From Lactobacillus sp. 0.1XD8-4 (lineage in GTDB: Bacteria > Bacillota > Bacilli > Lactobacillales > Lactobacillaceae): 34,317 nucleotides of DNA. The translations under genes and the position numbers were made by a program. Where the stretch lies: the NCBI RefSeq assembly GCF_009663775.1, contig NZ_RDBR01000027.1, positions 1 to 34,317 of the forward strand. Reading direction: 5' to 3'. Under the pieces are notes generated by a model, which saw only the letters and a list, made by a program, of their open reading frames with translations, did not search any database and was not told where the DNA came from. Below are positions 15,468 through 34,214 of the stretch, piece by piece; within the stretch, counting starts at the first letter, position 1; every line of letters begins with the position of its first letter.

Positions 15468-15889
15468 TCCTGAATTTTACGAATATTTTGAATAATGATT
15501 TTTACTCCATCGTTAAAGATTAGCTTATGCGTAGAACTATTAATGCGTTGCAACTGTCCCGTATACTCTTCATAATAGCCGGTTTGCCCATTGAAATATT
15601 CTACTTTTAATACTGGCCGCAACTTTAATCGCTTAATCTTAGCTAATTGTGCTTGTAATCGCCTTCCCGTGTTGATAGTTGAATAATCCTTATGCCGATA
15701 CCTGCTTCCTACTTCACTTAATAACTTATGGTATCCCGTTAAAGCAGCAAAGGGTGCAAATTGTGCCGCGCGGTCTTCACGAAGCATTGGTAAATGGGCT
15801 CGTGATTGGGGCCGCGGACAGTCCATAATATCCTGATATGCCGATGTATCACTAAATAACGCTTCTTCAATCTGCTCTTTATCTTTCAT
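15461..15889 (-). CDS. YolD-like protein, partner of the Y-family polymerase
   Basis: A 142-aa protein of the YolD-like group that usually sits next to UmuC-type polymerases in Firmicutes. The signature is LREDRAAQFAPFAALTGYHKLL (about 36-57). The rest is a small beta-rich region with basic residues. YolD-like proteins have been proposed to play the part of UmuD for the polymerase, but the biochemical role is not settled. Its ATG overlaps the polymerase stop (TAATG), so the two are translationally coupled and share the LexA-controlled promoter. Confidence 0.82.
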   Translation of the reverse strand: MKDKEQIEEALFSDTSAYQDIMDCPRPQSRAHLPMLREDRAAQFAPFAALTGYHKLLSEVGSRYRHKDYSTINTGRRLQAQLAKIKRLKLRPVLKVEYFNGQTGYYEEYTGQLQRINSSTHKLIFNDGVKIIIQNIRKIQEK

Positions 15890-17406
15890 TACGCGCGGTG
15901 TCCCCCAATTTGATTATTCCTTTCTAGTAAGGTTGCTCCCTTTTTTAAATCCGCTGCCCTAACAATTGCATTTTTACCAAAATCACTTTGCAAGTCAAGA
16001 ATCAATCTTTGTAATTGCTGGTCTTTTTTCTCTGTCTCTAATTTTCGATGATGTTTTTCTTCACGAACCCTTGTGTCTGTAAACAAGTCTAACTGCTCGC
16101 TATAAGATACTTGCTGTGCTGCAACAGAGGAAAGTAAGTGGTTTGCAATTACAGTTAGTTTTCGTGTTGTCAGTCGGCGGTTAACTCTTGTATCATAAAG
16201 GCGCATAAAATAAGTCATCAATTCTGTTGATGAAGCAGTTGGTAATGGAAGACCAATTGTCGCATGCATCGGTTTGGGAATCCGGCGTCCATAAAAATCA
16301 TTTACTAGCGTCCCTTGGTATTGTTCAGTAGTAGTATTAGAAATATCATACGCCACAGATAAACCAATCTGGTCCGTAACCATTCCCTGCTGTGTTAATT
16401 GAAGAGCTAAAGAATTAACCATTTCCTGAACAACTAACCGTGTCTCCGCAAAATTATAAGGACGGGCAAGGACCTGACTTGAGTAAATCCCATGGTCTGA
16501 AGAATGATATTTTTTTATGTCTGCTATCGTTGCCGATTCATAACCCCAGGCATGATCGATAATTATTTCAGCATTTTTACCAAATTCATGGTATAAGACC
16601 TCTTCATTCATTTCATCAGAGAGTTTACCAAGTGAACAACGCGCAATGTCTCCCATTGTATTTAAACCTAATTTTTGGAGTCGACGTGCATAACCAGGAC
16701 CAATCCGCCAAAAATCCGTAAGCGGTTGGTGTGCCCATAAGTAACGGCGAAATAAGTGTTCTGTCATTTGAGCAATCCGTACCCCGTCTTCATCCCCTGG
16801 AATCCGTTTGGCAACAATATCCATCGCTACTTTGGCTAAAAAAAGGTTAGTCCCAATCCCGGCAGTCGCTGTAATCTGGGTTTCAGCTTTGATGGTTTGG
16901 ATAATTTCTTTAGCAAGGACACGGGCTGTGACATGATGTTCTACTAAATAATCTGTTACATCCATTAACACCTCATCAATTGAATACACATGGATTTTTT
17001 CCGGTGGTAAATAGCGTAAGTAAATTTCATATATTTCCGCACTCTTTTTTAAGTAGAAACTCATCCGTGGTTTTACAATGCGGAACCCAATCCGAAATTC
17101 TGGTGTTTGCAATAATTCCTGACGATAGATGGACGTTACGGTTGACAAACGATGGTGCGGCATCCTAAGGGCACGTTTATGATTTAAACGGTCAACTCGC
17201 TGTACAACTTCATATAAACGGGCACGGCCAGAAACACCAAATTGCTTTAAGGCAGGCGAAACAGCGAGACAAATTGTCTTAGTAGTTCGTGATTCGTCCG
17301 CAACAACAAGGTTTGCATCTAGTGGATCAAGCCCATATTCTGCACACTCGACTGATGCGTAAAAGGACTTTAAGTCAATGGCCAGATATGTTGGTTGTGT
17401 TGACAT
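15889..17406 (-). CDS. Y-family DNA polymerase, UmuC type
   Basis: A 505-aa translesion polymerase that copies past damaged bases. Palm motifs: AIDLKSFYASVEC (first metal Asp, about 9-21) and YSIDEVLMDVT (catalytic Asp-Glu pair), then ATAGIGTNLFLAKVAMD, the helix-hairpin-helix region RRLQKLGLNTMGDIA, and a little-finger domain. The length exceeds DinB (about 350-370 aa) and fits the UmuC/YqjW group. ATG at 17406 follows GAGGAGTAGGA; an in-frame ATG at 17424 overlaps that site and is rejected. A LexA-type operator overlaps the -35, so damage-induced expression is expected. No UmuD-like gene is adjacent; a YolD-like gene is. Confidence 0.93.
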   Translation of the reverse strand: MSTQPTYLAIDLKSFYASVECAEYGLDPLDANLVVADESRTTKTICLAVSPALKQFGVSGRARLYEVVQRVDRLNHKRALRMPHHRLSTVTSIYRQELLQTPEFRIGFRIVKPRMSFYLKKSAEIYEIYLRYLPPEKIHVYSIDEVLMDVTDYLVEHHVTARVLAKEIIQTIKAETQITATAGIGTNLFLAKVAMDIVAKRIPGDEDGVRIAQMTEHLFRRYLWAHQPLTDFWRIGPGYARRLQKLGLNTMGDIARCSLGKLSDEMNEEVLYHEFGKNAEIIIDHAWGYESATIADIKKYHSSDHGIYSSQVLARPYNFAETRLVVQEMVNSLALQLTQQGMVTDQIGLSVAYDISNTTTEQYQGTLVNDFYGRRIPKPMHATIGLPLPTASSTELMTYFMRLYDTRVNRRLTTRKLTVIANHLLSSVAAQQVSYSEQLDLFTDTRVREEKHHRKLETEKKDQQLQRLILDLQSDFGKNAIVRAADLKKGATLLERNNQIGGHRA

Positions 17407-17442
17407 TGATATCCTACTCCTCATCCTGATTAGTTAATATTT

Positions 17443-17472
17443 ATTATACCGCACCTTCAAACATATGTTCAA
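17443..17472 (-). promoter_or_regulatory. SOS promoter with LexA (DinR) box
   Basis: Minus-strand TTGAAC (17467-17472), 18-bp spacer, perfect TATAAT (17443-17448). The sequence TGAACATATGTTTG (17458-17471) fits the Gram-positive LexA box CGAACRNRYGTTYC at 12 of 14 positions and overlaps the -35. Confidence 0.78.
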
Positions 17473-20305: not shown

Positions 20306-21539
20306 TTTCTTGTCCTCCTAACAACCGATCGATCTCTTCGGCAACTTCTTTTCCCTTTTGAACAGCAACGACAACTGTCTTGTCACCCTCGACAATATCA
20401 CCTGTTGCGAATACTTTAGGGTCTTTTGTCCGGTAACGCGCTTCTCTAAATGGGATTTCGTTATGTTGCAAATCAATATCAAGTCCCGTGGCATCAGCCT
20501 TTTGACCAACTGCTAGAATAATCTTATCAGCAGTGATGGTTATTTCACTATCAATTTTACGGTGCGTAAAGGTTGCCCGATTTTGGTGAACTTCTTTGGG
20601 AACATAACCATCAATAATTGTAACTCCCGCATGTTGGGCGTAAGCAAGTTCCTTTTTAGAAGCCTTAAATTCACTGAATTGTTCATAAACGACATCAGTA
20701 ACATATGGCACATCAAGCTTCTTTAAGGTGGTTACAACATCCATTGCAACGTCTCCACCACCGATAACTAAAACGTTTTTTGGCAAATCATCAAGTTTAC
20801 CCTTATTTTCCTTTGCCCGAGCAAGGAATGAAATGGCAGATTCTGTACAAATGTTATGTTCAAACATGGGGAGCATCTTAGCCTTACTAGTTCCGATAGC
20901 CACGATGACTGCATCATGGTTATCCTTTAGTTGGTCAATTGAAATATCCTCGCCAACCGTCGTGTTATAAATAATATGTGCTCCTAAATCAACAATGCGT
21001 TGAACCTCATAATCCACAATTTCTTCGGGCAAGCGGTATTCAGGAATCCCATATGTAAGATATCCACCAGCTTTTGCATTCTTTTCATAAATATCAACAG
21101 CGTATCCCTTTTCCAAAAGGGTCGTTGCTGCTTGCAGGGCGGATGGGCCACTTCCAATAATCGCAACACTCATTCCATTTGGCGTTCCAGCCTTAAGGAT
21201 TTTCATATTAAGTTTACGTTCCATATCAGTTACATAACGCTGGATCCCAGAAATATCAATCGGACCATCAATCTTTGCACGCGTACAAGCCTTCTCACAA
21301 TACCGTTCAGTAGGACAAACTCGGGCACAAATTGAACCCAAAGCATTATTTTCACGAATGGTTTCCGCTGCACCTTTTACATTACGGAAACGGACACTAC
21401 GGATAAATTTAGCAGGATTTGTATGTGCTGGACATGCCTGCGAACATGGTGCATCATGACACAATAAACAACGGGCAGCCTCTTGCATTACCGTTGTCAT
21501 TGTATAACCCTTTGGCTCTGTTTCATACTTTGAAGTCAT
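20298..21539 (-). CDS. preT: NAD-dependent dihydropyrimidine dehydrogenase subunit PreT
   Basis: A 413-aa flavoprotein subunit that takes electrons from NADH for PreA. The N-terminus has eight cysteines in two clusters (C24, C27, C32, C36 and C71, C75, C81, C85), as in the Fe-S domain of glutamate synthase small-subunit relatives. Next come an FAD-binding GSGPSA (129-134) with a downstream [14 protein letters not shown], and an NAD-binding GGGDVAMD (260-267). The adjacent preA makes PreT far more likely than GltD. ATG at 21539 with AGGAGG at 7 nt. A GTGA-N6-TCAC palindrome sits in the leader. Confidence 0.93.
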
Positions 21540-21786
21540 TAGACAACCTCCTCTAACCTAAGTCCCTGTTTTACAACTTAGTGATAAACGTCACTTTCTA
21601 TATATTAATAGTACAATTTAAACGGTTACATCATAATTAGGTAATTCCCTATGTATAAAGGGCCTATTATTATTAACCTTTATATTTAGTTATATATAAT
21701 ATGAATATTTTAATTTTATAATCAATATCATCATTGTGTAAAACAGCACATAGTCAGTCATATTATTTAAGGAACGAGTCAAATCC
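21540..21786. promoter_or_regulatory. Divergent regulatory region between preT and the ExoIII-like gene
   Basis: Gene-free, very AT-rich. It holds three palindromic elements: AGTGA-N6-TCACT (21580-21595), shaped like a CRP/FNR-family site; TATAAAGG-N15-CCTTTATA (21654-21661 and 21677-21684), a perfect 8-bp inverted repeat; and TGTG-N8-CACA (21735-21750), again CRP-like. No protein-coding frame or terminator is convincing here. Confidence 0.45.
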
Positions 21787-21815
21787 TTGTACAATGAATA
21801 ATAAAAGGATACTTT
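21787..21815 (+). promoter_or_regulatory. Promoter of the ExoIII-like gene
   Basis: TTGTAC (21787-21792), 17-bp spacer, TACTTT (21810-21815), 28 bp before the ATG. Confidence 0.45.
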
Positions 21816-21843
21816 GTATTATGAGTGGAAGAAGGACCTTATC

Positions 21844-22599
21844 ATGAATTTTATTTCTTGGAGCGTAAACGGCCTAAAAGCAGCGATTAGCCATGGTTTT
21901 GTCGATGATTTCAAGCAACTTGATGCTGACTGTTTTTGTCTGCAACGAACCAGATTAGCCAAGGGTGAACAGCCCCTAAACTTTCCTAACTACTATCAAT
22001 ATTGGAACTACGCTGAGAAAAAAGGCTACGCTGGAACCGCTATTTTCACTAAATATAAGCCAGAAAATATTATATACGGAATGAATAATTCAAAATTTGA
22101 CACAGAAGGACGGATAATCACTTTAGAATATCCACAATTTTACTTAGTAGACGTTTATGTCCCCGTTGCGGGCGAAAAACTACAACATTTAGATTATCGT
22201 TTAGCATGGGATCACGCTTTCCTTACCTATCTTTTGCACCTGCAAAGTCATAAACCTGTAATTATTGCTGGCGATATGAGCGTTGCCGATCAGCCAATTG
22301 ACTTAGCTGAACCAGCTAAAAATCATCATCACGCTGGCTTTACTAAAGATGAACGAGTCGATTTTGACAAAATTTTAAATGCCGGTTTTACTGATAGTTT
22401 TCGTTATCTCCACCCTAATCAGTCAGGAGCATATACATGGTGGAGCTACCGCTATAATGCCCGTGCCCGAAATATCGGCTGGCGCCTTGATTATTTTTTG
22501 GTTGCTGACGTCCTTGCGAATAAAATCAATAGCGCGCAGATTCTAGCTAATATTAAAGGATCAAGTCATTGCCCGATTGAACTTGACCTAAAAATTTAA
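21844..22599 (+). CDS. Exonuclease III/AP endonuclease homologue with degenerate active site
   Basis: A 251-aa endonuclease/exonuclease/phosphatase-fold protein, of the same length as ExoA. The scaffold is strongly conserved (YWNYAEKKGYAGTAIFT, SGAYTWWSYRYNARARNIGW, RLDYFLV). Active-site motifs differ: ISWNVNG reads ISWSVNG (Asn7 to Ser), LQET reads LQRT (metal-binding Glu to Arg35), Y-x-PN reads YVPV (Asn to Val108), GDLN reads GDMS (Asn to Ser146) and SDH reads SSH (Asp to Ser241). Tyr105, Asp144, Asp216 and His242 remain. Canonical ExoIII needs the Glu for metal and the Asn and Asp for catalysis, so AP endonuclease activity is probably lost. ATG at 21844 follows AAGGA; a TTG at 21814 is rejected. 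Intact frame, own promoter and terminator. Confidence 0.88.
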   Translation: MNFISWSVNGLKAAISHGFVDDFKQLDADCFCLQRTRLAKGEQPLNFPNYYQYWNYAEKKGYAGTAIFTKYKPENIIYGMNNSKFDTEGRIITLEYPQFYLVDVYVPVAGEKLQHLDYRLAWDHAFLTYLLHLQSHKPVIIAGDMSVADQPIDLAEPAKNHHHAGFTKDERVDFDKILNAGFTDSFRYLHPNQSGAYTWWSYRYNARARNIGWRLDYFLVADVLANKINSAQILANIKGSSHCPIELDLKI

Positions 22600-22643
22600 A
22601 ATAATTAAGCACCTAGTTAAAATACAAATAAGTACAATACACA

Positions 22644-22690
22644 AATAAGGCTCCAAAGCTCGGAAATCCCGAACTCTGGAGCCTTATTTT
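22644..22690. terminator. Bidirectional terminator between the ExoIII-like gene and apf
   Basis: AATAAGGCTCCA (22644-22655) pairs with TGGAGCCTTATT (22677-22688), with an inner TCGG/CCGA pairing; a T-run follows on either strand. A second, bulged hairpin (GCGTGAAAAAGAAG with CCTCTTTTACGC, about 22703-22741) lies between it and the apf stop. Confidence 0.85.
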
Positions 22691-22791
22691 CGCTTACAAG
22701 AGCGTGAAAAAGAAGTTATAAATACCCTCCTCTTTTACGCCCCTGATTGCATGTTTGAAGTATTGTTGATTATCTCTGTTTTAATTAAATT

Positions 22792-23475
22792 TTAGTACCA
22801 ACCGTGTGATTGCCAGAATGATTGAGCAGCACTCCATGAACCGTAGCGGCTTGCTACGTATTGGTCGGCTACTCGTTCTTGGTTAGCTTCTGAGTAATCA
22901 CCATTTAAGTATGATGCCGATAATTGGTACTTACCAATGTATTGACCATTACGGGCACTGTAACTACCACCAGATTCGCGAGCAGCAATCCAAGCTTTGG
23001 CTGCCGCATCATTACCACCAACATTTGAATTGTAGTTAGCTGGGGCAGTTTGTTGTTGACTTGTTGCTTGTTGTGGAGCAGCCTGATTTTGAACAGGTGC
23101 TTGTGCTTGTTGTTGGTTTGCCACCGATGCCTCACTTGCTGCTTGTGTTTGTGCATCTGCTTGTGAGGCAACATTAGCAGCTGGTAAGGTAGCAACTTGT
23201 TCTTGAGTTGCGGGAGCCACTTCGCCATCATCCTTGATAACTAATTGTTGACCAACATAAATCAAGTTCTTATCAGCGATATTATTGTGACTTGCTAACG
23301 TATCTACAAAAGTTAGATCGTGACCTAATTTGTAAGAAATCCCAGAAAGGGTGTCACCTGCTTGTACCGTGTAAATAGTATCGGCATTTGCAGTAGTTGC
23401 AGTAGCAACTGTACCTAATGCTACGGCACCAGTAATCGCTGCTGTAATCTTGGCTACTTTCTTAGATAACTTCAT
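22792..23475 (-). CDS. apf: Apf-like secreted LysM protein (aggregation-promoting factor)
   Basis: A 227-aa exported protein. It has a Sec signal peptide ([20 protein letters not shown], cleavage likely after ...TANA near 31), one LysM domain (about 34-80: [17 protein letters not shown]...YVGQQLVI) for peptidoglycan binding, a low-complexity Q/A-rich linker (about 85-150), and a C-terminal domain of about 75 residues ([51 protein letters not shown]) related to transglycosylase-like domains. This layout is that of lactobacillus Apf proteins, linked to aggregation, cell shape and surface adhesion. The short ESGG-containing domain suggests lysozyme-like ancestry; hydrolase activity is unproven. 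ATG at 23475. Confidence 0.88.
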
Positions 23476-25610: not shown

Positions 25611-26375
25611 CTAAAAGAATACCTTGACCACTTCACCACTTACTAGGGTATATTCTTGCTTCGTACCAGGGTCATATACCACTAATGAACCATTATCATC
25701 GATCTGCTTAGCAATTCCATGAATAAAACCGCCATTTACTTTGATAGTAATTGTTTTACCAAGCAAAAGTGACCGTTGACGATATCGTAACATAAACTGT
25801 CCACTTTGATAGTAAGGTGCATCAGAAATAATTTGGTTAATAATTGCAGCAACCAGTTCTGTGCGATCAATTTTAGCAGTATGTCCATTATCAATAGAAG
25901 TAGCAATATTATGTAAATTTTGAGGAAAGTTGTTGCTCGTCAAATTTATTCCTATACCACAAACAATCATTCCATTAACACGTTCAACTAAAAGTCCGCC
26001 AATTTTTTTATTCTGATAGTAGAGATCATTCACCCATTTTAATTTAATTTCCTTATAAGGGTAGAAAGCGGTTAGAACATCAGCAAGCGTTACTGCTAAG
26101 CCAGTCGTAAATAGTCCCCCATTTTCGACAGTCATTGGAATGTTAATACTTAAGTATATTCCTGTTTTTGCTGGAGAAAAAAAGGGCCGACCAAAACGTC
26201 CATGCCCCGCTTTTTGTTCATCAGCTAAAAAGACACACAAGCTGTGATTACCTTCTATAATATTCTTTTTTGCTAGTATTTGTGTTGAAGATACCCTTTT
26301 AAAGAAATGAATTTGACATTTAGACGAAACTAATTGCGATAATTTAGATAAATCGTATATAAAATTGTCCATCAT
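25611..26375 (-). CDS. Biotin-protein ligase, monofunctional (BirA catalytic type)
   Basis: A 254-aa ligase that attaches biotin, via biotinyl-AMP, to AccB. Present: SSTQILAKK (substrate loop start), the AGHGRFGRPFFSP nucleotide loop (family GRGRxGR), TGIYLSINIP, KWVNDLYYQNKKIGGLLVE (family KWPND) and GIGINL, then a small C-terminal SH3-like domain. There is no N-terminal helix-turn-helix, so it cannot be the biotin-operon repressor. The loop has His where E. coli BirA has Arg116, while the following Arg118 equivalent is kept. Its ATG overlaps the fabI stop (TAATG), with no separate ribosome site, so it is translationally coupled as the last gene of the operon. Confidence 0.87.
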   Translation of the reverse strand: MMDNFIYDLSKLSQLVSSKCQIHFFKRVSSTQILAKKNIIEGNHSLCVFLADEQKAGHGRFGRPFFSPAKTGIYLSINIPMTVENGGLFTTGLAVTLADVLTAFYPYKEIKLKWVNDLYYQNKKIGGLLVERVNGMIVCGIGINLTSNNFPQNLHNIATSIDNGHTAKIDRTELVAAIINQIISDAPYYQSGQFMLRYRQRSLLLGKTITIKVNGGFIHGIAKQIDDNGSLVVYDPGTKQEYTLVSGEVVKVFF

Positions 26376-27139
26376 TAAATTAAGTGAACACCCTTATCAA
26401 CATAGACGGTATCGCCAACAATACCAGTAGATAAGTCACTCATTAAAAATGCGCAAGTCCCACCAATCTCATCAATTGTTACATCATTCCCATCAACAGT
26501 TCGTGATTGGGATTCCTTTAGCAATTCCGTATGACCCTTAATTCCGGTAACAGCCAAAGTCTTCACTGCGCCTGCAGAAATAGCATTTACACGAATATGC
26601 TGATTACCAAGATCACGTGCTAAGTAACGGACATTGGCTTCTAGAGCTGCTTTAGCCACCCCCATCACATTGTAATTTGGGATCGCACGCTCAGAACCAA
26701 AATAAGTTAAGGTAACAATACTTGCAGGAACAGTTAGTAAGTCATGTTTTTGTGCTTCTTTAGCTACCGCAATAAGCGAGTAAGACGAAATATCTTGAGC
26801 TAACGCATAACCTTCTCGACTAGCGTTTAAAATTGTTCCATCTAATTCTTCTTTCTTCGCATAAGCAATTGCATGAACAATTCCGTTAACTTGACCAAAA
26901 CGCTCTTTAATTAACGAAAAAGCAGTTGCAATACTTTTATCCCTAGCAACATCACACTCTATTAAGTGACTCTCATCGTCAACTAACCGCTTAATTCCCT
27001 TCTTTAACCGTTCATTTTGATAAGTATAAATAATCTCCGCACCTTGGGCCGCCATGACCTTAGCACATCCCCATGCAATTGAGCGCCTATTAGCAACCCC
27101 CATTACAACAATTTTCTTGCCTGATAACAAATTTTCCAT
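26375..27139 (-). CDS. fabI: Enoyl-ACP reductase (NADH) FabI
   Basis: A 254-aa short-chain dehydrogenase that reduces enoyl-ACP in the last step of each elongation round. FabI features: GVANRRSIAWG (cofactor turn in place of the usual TGxxxGIG), ECDVARD, and the catalytic Tyr-x6-Lys YNVMGVAK preceded by the second conserved Tyr (LTYFGSERAIPN). It is the target of triclosan-type inhibitors in other bacteria. ATG at 27139 after GAGAGGATT. Lies 16 bp after accA. Confidence 0.96.
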   Translation of the reverse strand: MENLLSGKKIVVMGVANRRSIAWGCAKVMAAQGAEIIYTYQNERLKKGIKRLVDDESHLIECDVARDKSIATAFSLIKERFGQVNGIVHAIAYAKKEELDGTILNASREGYALAQDISSYSLIAVAKEAQKHDLLTVPASIVTLTYFGSERAIPNYNVMGVAKAALEANVRYLARDLGNQHIRVNAISAGAVKTLAVTGIKGHTELLKESQSRTVDGNDVTIDEIGGTCAFLMSDLSTGIVGDTVYVDKGVHLI

Positions 27140-27155
27140 CTCAATCCTCTCTCTC

Positions 27156-27932
27156 TTAAAATTTTCGATACCGCATTTGACGCTTTGCGATTAGTTCTTC
27201 TGATGTCAGCTTTTGTAATTTAGATAATCGTGACCATAAAACCCGGTCAATATTTTGACATGTGACCTGATATTCTTCTTCATTTTCATCAATAATTCCC
27301 TCAATTATCTGTCTTTTTAATAATGCGGCGGGGGTCATTTGCATAACCTTGGCTGCTTCATCTGCCTTAGACGCATCTTTCCATAAAATAGATGCAAAAC
27401 CTTCTGGCGAAAGGATTGAATAAGTAGAATAGTTAAGCATCCAAACTTCATCCCCACATGCCAGGGCTAACGCGCCGCCACTGCCGCCTTCACCATAAAT
27501 CACCGTTATAATTGGAACCGGAATTTGACCTATTTTAAATATACTTTGGGCAATTGCTTCTCCTTGGCCACCCTCTTCAGCATCTTTACTCGGAAAAGCA
27601 CCGGCAGTATTAACAAAACAAAGAATCGGTCGTTTAAATTTACCTGCTTGTTCAGCTAAGCGAACCGCTTTTCGATATCCACCAGGCATCGGGCAGCCAA
27701 AATGTTTAGCAATTTTATCTGGCAATGTCGATCCCCGCTCCGTCGTAATAACCGTTACTGCTCGACCATGAAATGTTGCAAGACCACCAATAATTGCTCC
27801 ATCATCGCTGCCTAAACGGTCACCATGGAGCTCAGTAAAATCATCAAATAGATAATTAATGATTTGCTTTCCAGTTATTTTTTTACCGTTACGAGCTTTT
27901 TCAACAACCTGGATTGGACTAAGCGCAGTCAT
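27156..27932 (-). CDS. accA: Acetyl-CoA carboxylase carboxyltransferase subunit alpha
   Basis: A 258-aa half of the carboxyltransferase that moves the carboxyl group from biotin to acetyl-CoA to form malonyl-CoA. Crotonase-fold landmarks: NYLFDDFTELHGDRLGSDD, FGCPMPGGYRKAVRLAEQA, PILCFVNTAGAFPSKDAEEGGQGEAIA and YGEGGSGGALALACGD. It is shorter than E. coli AccA (about 319), as is usual in lactic acid bacteria. ATG at 27932 follows GGAGGTGG by 5 nt; a TTG at 27947 is in front of that site and is rejected. It overlaps accD by 14 bp. Confidence 0.96.
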   Translation of the reverse strand: MTALSPIQVVEKARNGKKITGKQIINYLFDDFTELHGDRLGSDDGAIIGGLATFHGRAVTVITTERGSTLPDKIAKHFGCPMPGGYRKAVRLAEQAGKFKRPILCFVNTAGAFPSKDAEEGGQGEAIAQSIFKIGQIPVPIITVIYGEGGSGGALALACGDEVWMLNYSTYSILSPEGFASILWKDASKADEAAKVMQMTPAALLKRQIIEGIIDENEEEYQVTCQNIDRVLWSRLSKLQKLTSEELIAKRQMRYRKF

Positions 27933-28773
27933 TGCGACCACCTCCAACTTTGATTAGCCACTCTAATTTTTCTTTTTCTTCTTGTCTTTTAATAATTGCA
28001 TCAATAAAGCCGTGTTTAAGTAGATTTTCTGATGATTGTGTATCCTTAGGCAATTTTTCATGGATAGTCTGCTCAATTACTCGTCTTCCTGCAAAACCAA
28101 TTAACGCATGTGGCTCCGCAAGAATAATGTCACCATCCATAGCAAAACTAGCAGTAACACCACCAGTCGTTGGATCCGTCAAAACAACAATATAAAGCAA
28201 TCCAGCAGTATTATGATTAGCAATAGCTTGCGATATCTTGGCCATTTGCATCAAAGATAAGATTCCTTCTTGCATCCGTGCGCCACCAGAGGCAGTATAC
28301 ATAACAACCGTCTCATCTTGGGCAGTGGCATATTCAAATAAGCGAGTGATCTTTTCTCCCGCAACGGTACCTAATGACCCCATGATGAATGTCGGATCCA
28401 TAATCCCGAGAGCAAATTTAGTTGTATTAATTGTCGCTTCACCAGTTAAAACCGCATCATTTAAGTTCGTCACTGCTTGAAGATTATTAATCTTTTCTTG
28501 ATAACCAGGAAAATTAAGCGGGTCTTTGGTTTGAAGGTCACTATCAAATTCCACAAAATCATCGGTTAACCAACTCACCCGCTGCCGTGCAGTAATTCGG
28601 AAACCGTAATCACAATTAGGACAAACAGCATATTCAGTTAGTTGTTTTGCAAATAACGTATCACAACAATAAGGACACTTTATCCACATACGATCAGGAA
28701 TCTTAGCATCGGCGCGCTTGTCGGCTTTTACATGACGCTCACTCAATGTATTATTTTGCTCATATAATTTCAT
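27919..28773 (-). CDS. accD: Acetyl-CoA carboxylase carboxyltransferase subunit beta
   Basis: A 284-aa subunit carrying the four-Cys zinc ribbon (CPYC...CPNC, about 34-56) that is special to bacterial and plastid AccD, followed by the crotonase-type domain with MYTASGGARMQEG and PTTGGVTASFAM. It pairs with AccA. Its ATG overlaps the accC stop by 4 bp (ATGA), so it is coupled to accC; a GGGAGA lies about 13 nt upstream. Confidence 0.96.
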   Translation of the reverse strand: MKLYEQNNTLSERHVKADKRADAKIPDRMWIKCPYCCDTLFAKQLTEYAVCPNCDYGFRITARQRVSWLTDDFVEFDSDLQTKDPLNFPGYQEKINNLQAVTNLNDAVLTGEATINTTKFALGIMDPTFIMGSLGTVAGEKITRLFEYATAQDETVVMYTASGGARMQEGILSLMQMAKISQAIANHNTAGLLYIVVLTDPTTGGVTASFAMDGDIILAEPHALIGFAGRRVIEQTIHEKLPKDTQSSENLLKHGFIDAIIKRQEEKEKLEWLIKVGGGRNDCA

Positions 28774-30143
28774 GACGTCGTTTCATCTCCCTTCCAACGC
28801 GGTAAAAATGAATTTTCAAGAAAAGTGGTCGTTGCTTTTCCTTTTAAAAAGGTTAAATCATTAAGAATAGCCAAGTGGAAATTTTGGTTGGTCGTAATGC
28901 CCATGATAACCATCTCACTTAAAAGTCGCTTAATTTTTTCAATTGCTTCCATACGATCATGACCAAGGGCAATTACTTTTGCAATCATTGAATCATAAAA
29001 GGGAGTAACTTGGGCGCCAGGGTATAGGGCTGTGTCAATCCTCATTCCTAGATTACCAACTGGTAAATATAAATAGTTAATCGTACCAGTCATCGGCATA
29101 AAGTTTCGTTTGGGATCCTCTGCGTTGATTCGACATTCAATTGCATGTCCACGAATTTGAATATCATTTTGAGTAAACGGCAATGATTCACCAGCCGCGA
29201 CAAGTACTTGAGCTTTTACAAGATCAATTCCAGTTACCATTTCTGTAACAGTATGCTCAACTTGGATCCGAGTATTCATTTCCATAAAATAGAATTTATG
29301 GTGATGATCCATTAAAAATTCAATTGTTCCGGTATTGTGATAATCAATTGAGTTGATGGCCCGTAAAGCAATCTGTCCTAATTCTTTACGCTGGGTATTA
29401 GTAATTAATTGGCACGGACTTTCCTCAATAACCTTTTGCTTATTGCGTTGCAAGGAACAGTCACGCTCTGGAAAATAAACCGCATTGCCAAAATCATCAC
29501 GAAAAACTTGTACTTCAATATGTTTAACATTTTCCATGATCTTCTCTAAATACATTCGATCATCATCAAACGAAAGCTTAGCCTCGCTTTGTGCTGCTTC
29601 AAAGGATCGCTTCATCTGACGAGCATTTTCAATTCGGCGAATTCCCTTACCACCGCCACCTGCAGCAGCCTTTAAGAGGACAGGATACCCAATTTGATTA
29701 GCAACCCGTTCTGCTTCTGCCGAGTCGACAATATAGCTTTCACTACCAGGAATAACGGGCACACCCGATTTTTTCATTTGTTCACGAGCGTGTTCCTTAT
29801 TTCCCATTAAATCAATTACAGATGCCTGGGGCCCGATAAAAGTTATTCCGCAATCAGCACACATAGTTGCAAACTCAGCATTCTCTGATAAAAAGCCAAA
29901 TCCAGGGTGAATTGCCGTTGCTCCAGTACCGATAGCAGCTTCTAGAATATTTTTCTCATTTAGGTACGAATCTTGTGCCCGGGCAGTTCCTACACAGACG
30001 GCTTCATCAGCTAATTGGACATGGAGGCTTTCACGGTCAGCCGTAGAATAGATAGCAACCGTCTTAATTCCCAATTCCCGTAATGACCTAATAATACGAA
30101 CCGCAATCTCACCGCGATTAGCAACCAAAACCTTTGAAAACAT
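28770..30143 (-). CDS. accC: Acetyl-CoA carboxylase biotin carboxylase subunit
   Basis: A 457-aa ATP-grasp enzyme that carboxylates biotin on AccB using bicarbonate and ATP. Seen: the N-terminal VANRGEIAVRIIRSLRELG, the glycine-rich ATP loop LLKAAAGGGGKGIRRI (about 155-170), the EKIMENVKHIEVQV strand, the ERDCSLQRN(K)QK segment and FMEMNTRIQVEHTVTE with catalytic Glu and Arg residues. Normal length. ATG at 30143, 8 bp after fabZ, with a TTAGGTG ribosome site. Confidence 0.97.
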   Translation of the reverse strand: MFSKVLVANRGEIAVRIIRSLRELGIKTVAIYSTADRESLHVQLADEAVCVGTARAQDSYLNEKNILEAAIGTGATAIHPGFGFLSENAEFATMCADCGITFIGPQASVIDLMGNKEHAREQMKKSGVPVIPGSESYIVDSAEAERVANQIGYPVLLKAAAGGGGKGIRRIENARQMKRSFEAAQSEAKLSFDDDRMYLEKIMENVKHIEVQVFRDDFGNAVYFPERDCSLQRNKQKVIEESPCQLITNTQRKELGQIALRAINSIDYHNTGTIEFLMDHHHKFYFMEMNTRIQVEHTVTEMVTGIDLVKAQVLVAAGESLPFTQNDIQIRGHAIECRINAEDPKRNFMPMTGTINYLYLPVGNLGMRIDTALYPGAQVTPFYDSMIAKVIALGHDRMEAIEKIKRLLSEMVIMGITTNQNFHLAILNDLTFLKGKATTTFLENSFLPRWKGDETTS

Positions 30144-30151
30144 CTAAACAC

Positions 30152-30586
30152 CTAACCAATCATAAAAGTTAATTCTGCTGTACATGCTCGCTCGCCATCA
30201 ACAGTTGCAATTCCTTTTCCACCCCCAATGTGACCACGAATTTTCTCTAAATGAACCTCGAGCCTCATTGAATCTCCAGGACGAACTACCTTGCGAAATT
30301 CCGCCGAACGGATTCCACCAAAATAGGCAGTTTTTCCCTTAAATCTTGGTTCAGAAAGTAACGCTACTGCACCAGTTTGCGCTAATGACTCAACGATTAA
30401 CGCACCGGGTAAAACAGGGTTGTCTGGAAAATGACCATTAAAAACTTCTTCATTAATAGTAACGTTACGTCGAGCAACTGCCATTTCACCAGGAACTAAT
30501 TCTTCTACATAATCAATCAAAAGCATTGGATAACGGTGAGGGATAATTTTTTGAATTGCATTAATATCTAATACTTGATCAGCCAT
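30152..30586 (-). CDS. fabZ: 3-hydroxyacyl-ACP dehydratase FabZ
   Basis: A 144-aa hot-dog-fold enzyme that removes water from 3-hydroxyacyl-ACP. The catalytic His and Glu lie in FNGHFPDNPVLPGALIVESLAQTGA (about 48-72). Length fits FabZ rather than FabA. ATG at 30586 follows GGAGG, 2 bp after the accB stop. In many lactobacilli a second fabZ copy heads the fab locus; only this one is in the window. Confidence 0.95.
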   Translation of the reverse strand: MADQVLDINAIQKIIPHRYPMLLIDYVEELVPGEMAVARRNVTINEEVFNGHFPDNPVLPGALIVESLAQTGAVALLSEPRFKGKTAYFGGIRSAEFRKVVRPGDSMRLEVHLEKIRGHIGGGKGIATVDGERACTAELTFMIG

Positions 30587-30588
30587 AT

Positions 30589-31032
30589 TTAATCCTCCGA
30601 AACCGTAAATAACGGTTGTTCTACCTCAACTAGTTCTTCATTAGTAACATTAATGCCAGTTACTACACCAGTAAATTCACTTTTAATTTCAGTCATCATT
30701 TTCATTGCCTCAATTACACAAACAATATCACCCTTTTGAACATGGTCGCCGACATTAACATAAGCCGGTTCATTAGGTTTAGGTTGTAAATACACTGTTC
30801 CGACTAACGGTGCTTTGATTGTCTTATTAGTAGAAATGGCTGTATCATTGCTATCCGGTAGTACAGGATCACTTTCCTTTGTAGATTGTTGCTTAACAAT
30901 CGTTTGCGGATCATAATGGGACTGTTTGTTCTTGCTTAAGTACAGGTGAAAGTCACCATCTTGAATATTGAGCTCCCGCATATCGGAATCTTCAAAATTT
31001 TGCATCAAAGTTTGAATTTCTTTAAGCTCCAA
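30589..31032 (-). CDS. accB: Biotin carboxyl carrier protein of acetyl-CoA carboxylase
   Basis: A 147-aa carrier. The N-terminal 30 residues and a P/T/S-rich linker (about 45-70) precede a biotinyl domain with the target lysine in VIEAMKMMTEIKSE (about 110-123). The start is TTG at 31032: GGGAG lies 10 nt upstream and overlaps the end of fabF, and no ATG is near. It would be biotinylated by the ligase at the end of the same operon. Confidence 0.94.
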   Translation of the reverse strand: MELKEIQTLMQNFEDSDMRELNIQDGDFHLYLSKNKQSHYDPQTIVKQQSTKESDPVLPDSNDTAISTNKTIKAPLVGTVYLQPKPNEPAYVNVGDHVQKGDIVCVIEAMKMMTEIKSEFTGVVTGINVTNEELVEVEQPLFTVSED

Positions 31033-31039
31033 TTAAAAA

Positions 31040-32272
31040 TCACTCCCATTTACGAAAAGCTAAAACCGCATTGTGACCACCAAAGCCAAAAGAGTTACTA
31101 ATTGCATACGTTGCATCATGAATATCTTGATTTTCCTTAGTAACAAGATTAATTTGACATTCTGGATCCTGTTCATAACAACCGACATTTACGGGCAACT
31201 TCCCTTTGGCTAAAGCGGCAACAGTTATAACCGCTTCAATCGCACCAGCGGCACCTAATAAGTGACCTGTCATTCCCTTAGTTGAACTAACACGTACCGC
31301 ACTGTCTTTACCAAATACTTGATTAATAGCTTTAGCTTCACCAGAATCATTAGCGTGAGTTGCCGTTCCATGGGCATTGATATATGTAACATCAGCAGGC
31401 TTAATTCCCGCTTCATTAATAGCTGCTTCCATTGCCCGAGCGGCTCCAGTTCCATTTGGGTCTGGGGATGTAATATGATAGGCATCCGAAGTAGCACCAT
31501 AGCCAACTATCTCACCTAGAATATTAGCTCCACGTTCCTGTGCATGTTCCAGTTCTTCAAGGACTAATGTTGCACCACCTTCACCAAGTACAAAACCATT
31601 TCGATTGACGTCAAACGGCAAAGAAGCTTTGGTGGGATCAGTCGTTTCACTGAGTGCCGTCAATGCGGCAAACCCAGCAATTCCAATCTCATTAACTGAT
31701 GCTTCTGATCCACCAGCAATCATTACCTTAGCTCGCCTTTCTTTAATTTGACGAAAGGCCTCCCCAATTGAATTAGTTCCTGTCGCGCAGGCTGTTACGA
31801 TTGCGGTACAAATATTTTGAGCATTAAAGCGAATCGCTATATTTCCCGCTGCCATATTAGCAATCGACATTGGAACAAACATTGGTGAAATCCGCTTAGG
31901 ACCCTTATCATGCATTTTGATAATCTGGTCTTGAATCGTTGTTAAACCACCAATTCCAGAACCATAAATTACTCCAAGGTCATAGGGATTGGTATTTTCA
32001 TTATTAACCCCAGCCATCTCCATTGCTTCTACTGCACTTTGAATAGCATATTGAGAATACAAGTCCATTCGGCGGGCTGCTTTTTTCCCAACTACTGCTG
32101 CAGGGTCAAAATCATCAATTTCACCAGCAACAGTAATACCTGTTGCAGCTGCATCAAATTTACTAATTTTCTTAATACCAGTTTTCCCAGCAAGTGAGTT
32201 AGCAACAAATGCTTCAACACCGTTACCATTAGGAGCGACTGCACCCATTCCTGTAATTACTACTCTTGGCAT
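31040..32272 (-). CDS. fabF: 3-oxoacyl-ACP synthase II (FabF)
   Basis: A 410-aa condensing enzyme with the full Cys-His-His triad: VTACATGTNS (Cys near 163), INAHGTATHANDSGE (His near 302) and KGMTGHLLGAAGA (His near 338). Glycine-rich end NSFGFGGHN is intact. Extends acyl-ACP with malonyl-ACP. ATG at 32272 after AGGAGG. The absence of fabH next to acpP makes this the only condensing enzyme in the window. Confidence 0.97.
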   Translation of the reverse strand: MPRVVITGMGAVAPNGNGVEAFVANSLAGKTGIKKISKFDAAATGITVAGEIDDFDPAAVVGKKAARRMDLYSQYAIQSAVEAMEMAGVNNENTNPYDLGVIYGSGIGGLTTIQDQIIKMHDKGPKRISPMFVPMSIANMAAGNIAIRFNAQNICTAIVTACATGTNSIGEAFRQIKERRAKVMIAGGSEASVNEIGIAGFAALTALSETTDPTKASLPFDVNRNGFVLGEGGATLVLEELEHAQERGANILGEIVGYGATSDAYHITSPDPNGTGAARAMEAAINEAGIKPADVTYINAHGTATHANDSGEAKAINQVFGKDSAVRVSSTKGMTGHLLGAAGAIEAVITVAALAKGKLPVNVGCYEQDPECQINLVTKENQDIHDATYAISNSFGFGGHNAVLAFRKWE

Positions 32273-32301
32273 CCTATTCCTCCTAACTAATTACCACATA
32301 A

Positions 32302-33036
32302 CTATATTGTCATCCCACCGTCCACGATAAGTGTTTGGCCGGTGATATATTCATTTTGTGCAAGAAATTTAATTGTACTGGCAACTTCCTGTGGAGAGCC
32401 TAACCGTTTTAGTGGGATTTTCTCTAAAATTTGTTTTTGAATGTGTTCTGAAAGGGTGGCAGTCATATCACTTTTAATCATTCCGGGCGCAACAGCATTA
32501 CACCTTATTCCACGAAGGGCACCCTCTTGCGCAATAGTCTTCGTTAACCCAATGATGCCAGCTTTACTGGCGGCATAATTTGCTTGACCAGCATTACCAT
32601 GAATTCCGATAATACTTGCTAAATTAATAATGCTTCCTGAACGTTGCTTAAACATTTTTTTGAGAAGTTGTTGCGTAAGCATAAAAGTTCCACGAAGGTT
32701 AACATTAAGAACATCATCAAATTCAGTAATTTTCATTCCAATTAATAACTTATCATGGGTAATCCCTGCATTATTCACTAAAATATCGATCTGGTTATAT
32801 ATTGACCATGCCGTTTTTGCTAGGCGTTTAACCGCTTCTTCATCAGCAATATCACCTTGAAGATAAGTATACTCAGCGCCGCTTGCTTTAAGTCGATCTT
32901 CTAATTTACTTGGTAAAGTTTCATGGCGACCATTAAGGATTACGCGACAACCACTATTAGCAAATAGTAAAGCTGTGGCTGCACCGATGCCACGGCTGCT
33001 ACCCGTTATGAAAACAACTTTATCTTTGAGATCCAT
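32302..33036 (-). CDS. fabG: 3-oxoacyl-ACP reductase FabG
   Basis: A 244-aa short-chain dehydrogenase that reduces 3-oxoacyl-ACP with NADPH. Motifs: TGSSRGIGAATALLF (cofactor), LVNNAGI, the catalytic Ser in NLASIIG and YAASKAG (Tyr-x3-Lys). ATG at 33036 follows AAGGAG and lies inside the end of fabD (17-bp overlap). Confidence 0.96.
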   Translation of the reverse strand: MDLKDKVVFITGSSRGIGAATALLFANSGCRVILNGRHETLPSKLEDRLKASGAEYTYLQGDIADEEAVKRLAKTAWSIYNQIDILVNNAGITHDKLLIGMKITEFDDVLNVNLRGTFMLTQQLLKKMFKQRSGSIINLASIIGIHGNAGQANYAASKAGIIGLTKTIAQEGALRGIRCNAVAPGMIKSDMTATLSEHIQKQILEKIPLKRLGSPQEVASTIKFLAQNEYITGQTLIVDGGMTI

Positions 33037-33970
33037 ACCGATACTCCTTTATAAATTTTTGGTAACTATCAAGGTCAGAGATATGACTCGTCTTTAATTG
33101 CGGACTTATTTGTTTAGCGAACCGCGTTAACGTTTTCCCAGGGCCAATCTCCAAAGTGGTATCTATTTGTTGGTGTTCAATTAAGTATTGAAGTCCCGCA
33201 CCATAATGTGTCGGAACAGCTAACTGCCGCTCTAAAACCAAATTAATTGTCGCCTTTTCAAATGGCATAACTGTCGTATTACTAATAACCGGCAGCGTTG
33301 GGGTTATAAAGTTAACATTTTGAAGTTGCTGGTGCATTTTTTCCTGTGCTCCATTAAATAAGGGAGTATGAAAAGCACCGTTAACCTTCAAAACAACAGT
33401 GCGCTTTGCCAAGCCTTTTTGTTCAATCTGAGTAACTGCTTCTTGAACATCAGAAATAATTCCACCAATAACTAACTGTGCGGGGGAATTATAGTTAGCA
33501 ACATAAATTTGTTTGCCTTTACTTCTAAGTTCATGACAAAGGTCTTCAATCTTATGAATCTCAGGATTTAGGATTGCTGCCAATGTACTATCAACCTTAT
33601 CAGCGTCAGCTTGCATAAACTCAGCACGAGCAGTTAATAGTTGCATTCCGGCACTAAAAGAAATAGCTTTACTAGCAAATAAAGCCGCATACTCGCCAAG
33701 CGATAACCCGATCATTCCCTTTATTGGTAAGTTTGGTAAATCTCTTTCTAACATTCGGTAAATTCCATAACTAACAGCCACCAATGCTGGTTGAACATAT
33801 TCTGTTTTATTTAACTCACCATGTTCATTCTTCATAATAGCGAGGAGATCAAGATTAATTAATTCGCTAGCCTCAGTAATAATCTTTGAAAAAAGAGAGT
33901 CGGCCATTAGCTCGACTCCCATTCCCGATCGTTGTGCACCTTGACCACTAAATAAAATTCCGTAACGCAT
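33020..33970 (-). CDS. fabD: Malonyl-CoA:ACP transacylase FabD
   Basis: A 316-aa acyltransferase that loads malonate on ACP. N-terminal GILFSGQGAQRSGMG, nucleophile Ser in GLSLGEYAAL (about 90), and catalytic His in NGAFHTPLF (about 199). ATG at 33970, one base after the acpP stop, is preferred over an in-frame upstream start at 34000, which lies inside acpP and would add a non-homologous leader. Confidence 0.95.
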   Translation of the reverse strand: MRYGILFSGQGAQRSGMGVELMADSLFSKIITEASELINLDLLAIMKNEHGELNKTEYVQPALVAVSYGIYRMLERDLPNLPIKGMIGLSLGEYAALFASKAISFSAGMQLLTARAEFMQADADKVDSTLAAILNPEIHKIEDLCHELRSKGKQIYVANYNSPAQLVIGGIISDVQEAVTQIEQKGLAKRTVVLKVNGAFHTPLFNGAQEKMHQQLQNVNFITPTLPVISNTTVMPFEKATINLVLERQLAVPTHYGAGLQYLIEHQQIDTTLEIGPGKTLTRFAKQISPQLKTSHISDLDSYQKFIKEYRYGSQR

Positions 33971-33971
33971 A

Positions 33972-34214
33972 TTATTTCTCGTCGAGTTGCTTTTTAACAA
34001 AGTTCACTACATCACCAATAGTCTGGATTCCTTCGTCAGCATCCAATTCAATATCGAATTTGTCTTCCAATTCATTCATAATTTCAAAGACATCTAAACT
34101 ATCCGCATCAAGGTCATCCTTAATATTCGTGTCCATTGTAACTTTATCTTTATCTACATCTAGTTCATCAATAGTAATATTCTTTACAGTATCAAAAATT
34201 TCTTCTTCAGTCAT
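33972..34214 (-). CDS. acpP: Acyl carrier protein
   Basis: An 80-aa acidic four-helix protein; the phosphopantetheine Ser is in LDADSLDVFEIM (Ser near 39). Central carrier of the pathway. ATG at 34214 follows AAGGAAG (34223-34229). Only 29 bp separate the start codon from the IS30 end. In related lactobacilli fabH usually precedes it; here the operon is interrupted at this point. Confidence 0.96.
   Translation of the reverse strand: MTEEEIFDTVKNITIDELDVDKDKVTMDTNIKDDLDADSLDVFEIMNELEDKFDIELDADEGIQTIGDVVNFVKKQLDEK

Follow-up and report, generated by a model that had tools for sequence, protein, structure and literature searches.

The window, that is the whole stretch of 34,317 nucleotides analyzed here, contains an undamaged open reading frame that runs from an ATG start to a TAA stop codon and encodes a member of the ExoIII/ExoA family (Table 1). 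ExoIII/APE1 is a textbook catalytic family. The encoded protein was found to match the family over its full length, with 274 bits to TIGR00633 (cut-off 99), 256 bits to TIGR00195 (cut-off 182.55) and 65 bits to Pfam PF03372 (cut-off 24.5). It aligned end to end with both Bacillus subtilis ExoA (5cfe) and human APE1, the identity to B. subtilis ExoA being 46% over 249 residues. An AlphaFold model, for which the input alignment comprised 27 sequences, had a mean pLDDT of 85. Its top match was ExoA 5cfe (Z 36.1, rmsd 2.0, 249 residues). ExoA, XthA and APE1 were the best structural matches of the model, with Z between 34 and 36, and the protein is predicted to have the alpha/beta-sandwich fold of the family. 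The preliminary description stated that the protein follows ExoA over its full length, and this is in agreement with the scores above cut-off and the Z-score of 36.1 against 5cfe.

Table 1. Features of the gene for the ExoA homologue and of its upstream region
Feature	Position	Strand	Basis
Gene for predicted inactive ExoA homologue, 251 aa	21844..22599 (stop codon included)	+	ORF, translation, family models, fold match
Ribosome site GAAGGA, 7 bases before ATG	21831..21836	+	Sequence; retained in five reuteri-like relatives aligned
Probable -10 region TTGTACAAT	21787..21795	+	Present in 7/7 aligned upstream regions, window included; function predicted
Codon 7: Ser for Asn (APE1 N68)	21862..21864	+	
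Codon 35: Arg for metal-binding Glu (APE1 E96)	21946..21948	+	
Codon 108: Val for Asn (APE1 N174)	22165..22167	+	
Codon 146: Ser for Asn (APE1 N212)	22279..22281	+	
Codon 241: Ser for Asp (APE1 D308)	22564..22566	+	

Ser7, Arg35, Val108, Ser146 and Ser241, the five active-site substitutions already named in that description, were all read from the alignments to 5cfe and human APE1; the APE1 numbers are those that we take to match the chain positions. The Glu that serves as metal ligand (APE1 E96) is absent, with Arg35 in its place, and the Asp-Asn pair that positions the nucleophile (APE1 D210 and N212) is incomplete, Asp144 being retained while Ser146 replaces the Asn. Also retained are D216 (APE1 D283), H242 (H309) and Y105 (Y171). 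H242 and D216 were invariant across 17 alignment rows, consisting of the window protein and 16 relatives.

The changes were compared with a set of 99 canonical ExoA proteins, from which a fragment (L067) and all proteins of the 275-aa type, of the inactive type and of genus g26 were excluded. In this set 45 columns were at least 97% constant; 12 of them were classified as catalytic according to the APE1 literature, using a list that is in part our assumption, and 33 were other columns. The window protein was changed at 5 of the 12 catalytic columns vs. 3 of the 33 others (Fisher p = 0.022), and its catalytic changes therefore exceed chance; the scaffold retained 30 of the 33 non-catalytic invariant columns. 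Among the canonical proteins 96/99 had no change in any catalytic column and three had one. The same test gave values below 0.05 for 11 of 17 inactive relatives. The other six, with values above 0.05, had fewer catalytic changes or more changes elsewhere, and all three g26 proteins also gave values above 0.05.

The gene was previously described as having an intact frame, a promoter, a ribosome site and a terminator. The frame was indeed found intact, and both GAAGGA and the -10-like element were conserved. TACAAT (21790-21795, within TTGTACAAT) was retained in all six relatives aligned, and TTGTACAAT is also present upstream of the gene in G012, presumably Limosilactobacillus fastidiosus, though this gene is situated at another locus. 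A consensus scan marks a sigma-70-like site at 21673-21700 instead (10 of 12). However, the scan identified 15 sites per 1.3 kb vs. 5.1 expected and is therefore not specific. The terminator was only weakly supported: the hairpin at 22643-22689 scores on the minus strand only, where it lies past a convergent LysM gene, and it was not seen after the gene in the relatives aligned.

No RNA element of Rfam was found in 21400-22900. The gene has no conserved neighbor or operon, as neighbors differ among the window group, L. fastidiosus and the Lactobacillus groups; a gene for a small membrane protein adjoins the inactive gene in 13 Lactobacillus genomes (a broken copy in G295 included) but not in the window group. 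Viral contigs were searched with one protein as query, an approach limited to close relatives, and no relative carried by phage was confirmed. SOS control of the inactive gene was rejected, since its upstream region contains no LexA-type box. Elsewhere in the window, a LexA-type box, CAAACATATGTTCA, is located at 17458-17471, just upstream of a gene for a UmuC/DinB-like polymerase (15889-17424, minus strand). It has two mismatches on the plus strand and one on the minus strand to what we take to be the Gram-positive LexA consensus, suggesting that the polymerase gene may be under SOS control; the window holds five LexA-type matches vs. 6.3 expected, which is not above chance. A putative fatty-acid synthesis cluster of the fab and acc type, as judged from translations, occupies 25611-34214 on the minus strand.

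We found an ExoIII-family match in 49 of the 50 Limosilactobacillus genomes searched, and an intact gene of the inactive type in eight, the window genome counted. Seven of the eight, the window group (G000, G002, G036, G034, G037, G035, and G004), have identical N7S, E35R, N108V, N146S and D241S changes; of these, G002, G036, G034, G037, and G004 are here labeled reuteri-like. The six other proteins of the group are 76-78% identical to the window protein. The five substitutions are thus fixed in six other genomes, and sequencing error or strain-specific decay is thereby ruled out; the preliminary description had named fixation of Ser7, Arg35, Ser146 and Ser241 across Limosilactobacillus as a check. 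Canonical residues in sister strains, named there as evidence to the contrary, were not found in these six. The ExoA encoded by three other Limosilactobacillus genomes (G003, G033, and G027) is canonical, about 252 aa long, and belongs to a different lineage. The eighth holder, G012, which we take to be L. fastidiosus as its residues are those of a record of that species (L032), has E35R, N108F, D144S, N146G and D241E and retains N7.

In Lactobacillus the inactive type was identified in 17 of 75 genomes searched and was intact in 16. All 16 intact copies carry E35D or N (mostly the conservative D), N108F or Y, and N146S or G, while N7 and D241 are retained. The Asn matching APE1 N212 is gone from all 24 intact copies of the inactive type. 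All eight intact Limosilactobacillus copies have Arg in place of the metal ligand, and one of them has also lost D144. An internal stop codon was found in the Lactobacillus copy of G295, a frameshift in the Limosilactobacillus copy of G001 and a short remnant in G038, also Limosilactobacillus; from these three genomes it is evident that the gene can be lost. The copy in G004 has a two-residue deletion within a strand. When a profile was run against 397 genomes of the family, 14 genomes scored 458-492 bits and the next one 402; all 14 are Limosilactobacillus or Lactobacillus. Eleven of them had contributed to the model, and one is G295.

Some single genomes deviated in other ways. The inactive ExoA of G425 (L191, 9655-10404) is further changed by Y105F, N108Y and W213E, W213 being the position of APE1 W280. 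Limosilactobacillus G009 (94% complete) lacked an ExoIII-family match and gave an Nfo match in two overlapping pieces. In the stretch of G035 that was read (L167), genes abut without intergenic DNA and all lie on one strand, so that this assembly looks like concatenated coding sequences and not like a real chromosome.

A search for a second, canonical ExoA in the same genome had been suggested as a check on the pseudoenzyme reading. The window genome was found to encode one (L002, contig C101), a protein of 275 aa with 45% identity to the window protein and with intact catalytic residues. The canonical catalytic residues were present in all 20 Limosilactobacillus proteins of the 275-aa type inspected. 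This type accompanies the inactive gene in 8/8 intact Limosilactobacillus and 15/16 intact Lactobacillus holders, and the lone holder without it is a genome that is 79% complete (G472). Two Lactobacillus genomes, G281 (L207) and G334 (L208), carry two tandem genes of the 275-aa type beside the inactive type. Both tandem genes of G281 retain the catalytic residues. In G334 the match of one copy begins at residue 80, in an open frame of 216 aa; this copy is probably broken, but the stretch examined ended there.

Nfo (endonuclease IV) was found in none of 20 holders examined, i.e., 8/8 Limosilactobacillus, including the window genome, and 12 of 16 Lactobacillus, and was not found in G001, G038 or G295 either. 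It was present in G003, G033, and G027 and in three g26 genomes (G140, G165, and G110). Since only 4 of 50 Limosilactobacillus genomes have Nfo, its absence is almost general in the genus and no peculiarity of the holders. The 275-aa enzyme has probably taken over the repair of AP sites, in which case the ancestral ExoA lineage would then have been redundant and free to change. Redundancy after such a takeover is probable, with the order of events as we presume it here.

The phylogeny was based on 47 proteins with six active-site columns removed; it included 18 intact inactive proteins, the remaining six of the 24 being near-copies that were omitted. The 18 inactive proteins and the proteins of genus g26 formed one clade with support of 99/99, while the inactive proteins as a clade apart from g26 had support of just 34/23. 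A tree uniting the Limosilactobacillus inactive proteins with the canonical ExoA of G003, G033, and G027 was rejected (AU p = 1e-6), and with it a descent from that canonical ExoA. A single clade of Limosilactobacillus inactive proteins including L. fastidiosus was absent from the tree but was not rejected (p-AU 0.29).

Only 3 of 10 g26 genomes (G140, G165, and G110) had any ExoIII-family match, and no further match was found in these three at E 1e-5. Their proteins retain E35, N7 and D241. N146S is found in G140 and N108A or V in G165 and G110, and N160 is changed in each of the three as well. The genes flanking the G140 gene are those that flank the canonical exoA in G003, G033, and G027, and the G140 gene is therefore probably at the old exoA locus. 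The inactive-type genes are situated at several loci other than this one.

Selection was assessed from dN/dS ratios by the Nei-Gojobori method. For the inactive type the ratio was 0.022-0.099 in the 10 pairs of the five reuteri-like genomes and 0.034-0.068 in 15 pairs of six Lactobacillus genomes, while G281-G334 gave 0.068 and G471-G373 gave 0.025. The 275-aa paralogue, used as control in the same pairs, gave 0.021-0.063. In pairs with the window genome or G012 synonymous sites were saturated (dS at least 2) and the ratio is not usable; the largest ratio among them was 0.145 for G002-G012, against 0.064 for the paralogue. In the reuteri-like group dN of the inactive type reached about 2.6 times the value of the paralogue. 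The low dN/dS indicates that the inactive type is strongly constrained, though less than the paralogue in most reuteri-like pairs. A dN/dS below 1 had been proposed as a test, and the unsaturated pairs, at 0.02-0.10, are close to the values of the paralogue.

The cost of comparable changes is known from APE1 mutants. Loss of N212 costs 10^4-10^5-fold, E96Q 2300-fold, N68A 600-fold and D308A fivefold (PMC3852660, in the excerpts available), whereas in the excerpts of a later preprint the factors are 7000 for N212, about 100 for N68A and about 20 for E96A (PMC13192912). Combined, the five changes would make useful cleavage by the window protein very unlikely, and we infer that it is unable to cut DNA. 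N146S would remove the residue holding the nucleophilic water, E35R would place a positive charge at the Mg2+ site, and N7S and D241S would remove residues holding water ligands of the metal. The active-site charge of the Limosilactobacillus versions changes from -4 to -1 (7/7 computed; G035, outside the computation, has the same residues). A residual weak activity is conceivable, since D144, D216, H242 and Y105 remain, and would be likeliest in the Lactobacillus versions with N7 and D241.

The window protein and all 17 relatives counted retain R90, R119 and R207, and among these 18 proteins only that of G425 lacks W213. These four residues would fit continued nucleic-acid binding. Over 22 positions that we, in part by assumption, regard as DNA-facing, the net charge was +3 to +7 in the 18 inactive proteins (+6 in the window protein) vs. 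+7 to +12 in 25 canonical lactobacillar proteins, and acids were present at positions 42, 111, and 156 in 18, 18, and 17 of the 18 inactive proteins, respectively. The lowered charge and the acids speak against strong DNA binding. The g26 proteins had even lower net charges of +4, +3 and +1 despite retaining most catalytic residues, and the loss of charge is therefore not tied to inactivation.

On balance, we consider it probable that the window protein is a maintained pseudoenzyme of the ExoIII/ExoA family that binds nucleic acid without cutting it. That the protein is a maintained pseudoenzyme was the main claim of the preliminary description, and it is supported by the loss of catalytic residues, the kept fold and frame, the purifying selection across species and the intact paralogue. 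The dead copy very probably has a different job. The ExoA groove may still bind nucleic acid, be it abasic sites, nicks, ends or RNA, which is the less sure part of the proposal. Arg35 could fill the vacated metal site and take on part of the task of the metal in meeting the phosphate, and the bound target might be shielded, marked, or passed to the active paralogue. With modest confidence we rank non-cutting nucleic-acid binding first among the possible roles and a Crc-like protein interaction second.

The latter is the main alternative, given the loss of positive charge on the DNA-facing surface. The fold would here have become a protein-interaction module that is off DNA and acts on a partner, e.g., the active paralogue or an RNA-binding protein. 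Crc of Pseudomonas offers a precedent, as it does not cut, has the same fold, carries a Ser at the position of APE1 D210 and has a weakened positive surface (PMC3662782, in the excerpts available); this D-to-S change also occurs in the L. fastidiosus version, and the lowered charge of the DNA-facing surface and the acids at three of its positions in almost every one of the 18 inactive proteins point in the same direction. However, Hfq, the RNA-chaperone partner of Crc, was not found in 7/7 genomes searched, by a search for which the control was positive in 5 of 14 genomes, Escherichia coli and B. subtilis among them. In addition, the window protein retains a positive residue at three of six DNA-attracting positions (K12, R37, and R209), whereas Crc does so at one (PMC3662782, same excerpts). 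We find such a role rather unlikely.

A changed chemistry, i.e., a slow or metal-independent nuclease or phosphatase using D144, D216 and H242, appears improbable. It would draw on the retention of these residues and Y105, on the invariance of H242 and D216 in the 17 rows and on the milder changes in the Lactobacillus versions (mostly E35D, with N7 and D241 retained), but the Asn equivalent to N212 is lost from every intact copy, at a cost of thousands-fold in APE1 (PMC3852660 and PMC13192912, as excerpted), and in Limosilactobacillus Arg replaces the metal ligand throughout, with D144 lost as well in one copy. Still less credible is a slow decay, in which the gene would be a fading relic of a redundant ExoA without present function. 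The low dN/dS across separate lineages argues against it, as do the retained frame, ribosome site and -10-like element and the fixation of the same five substitutions while 30 of 33 other invariant columns hold; what would agree with decay are the broken copies of G001 and G295, the remnant in G038, the absence of the inactive type from most genomes searched (intact in 8/50 Limosilactobacillus and 16/75 Lactobacillus) and the raised dN of the reuteri-like group.

Returning to the maintained, non-cutting binder, a more specific reading is less likely than not. In host-associated lactobacilli the ExoA lineage may have been dismantled stepwise and become a sensor or shield that works without metal on RNA or on damaged DNA, with Arg replacing Mg2+. 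The Asn of GDLN, the Asn of PN and the metal Glu would have been the first to change, and Asn7 and the Asp of SDH would have followed later. If this is true, the stages by which a functional repair enzyme turned into a pseudoenzyme are still present in living species. The graded active-site loss in gut-type lactobacilli provides a way to test how a DNA-repair nuclease turns into a binder or regulator. It is also a warning that passing the exodeoxyribonuclease III models does not guarantee that a gene in these species encodes the repair enzyme.

To our knowledge, Crc alone among the non-cutting bacterial members of the ExoIII/APE1 family is well described. The lineage described here is a second ExoIII-family pseudoenzyme lineage besides Crc, with intermediate states preserved. 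The searches of open-licence PMC papers gave no description of an inactive lactobacillar ExoA lineage, an absence that is weak evidence. Compared to B. subtilis ExoA (5cfe), the window protein has the length, the fold and most scaffold residues in common, but differs by the five replaced catalytic residues and by acids at three DNA-facing positions. The 275-aa paralogue L002 is from the same family and differs by its intact catalytic residues and its separate branch. The ExoA of g26 falls in the same clade as the window protein, yet retains most catalytic residues. Crc (PDB 4jg3) resembles the window protein in being a nuclease-inactive ExoIII-family protein with a replaced active-site Asn and a weaker positive surface, and both residues corresponding to APE1 D210 and N212 are replaced in it (PMC3662782, in the excerpts available), whereas the window protein retains the former. 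By sequence, the ExoA and APE1 chains are the closest kin and rank far above Crc, which is a distant match (2e-23 vs. 1e-83 for ExoA), and we infer that the window lineage arose independently of Crc.
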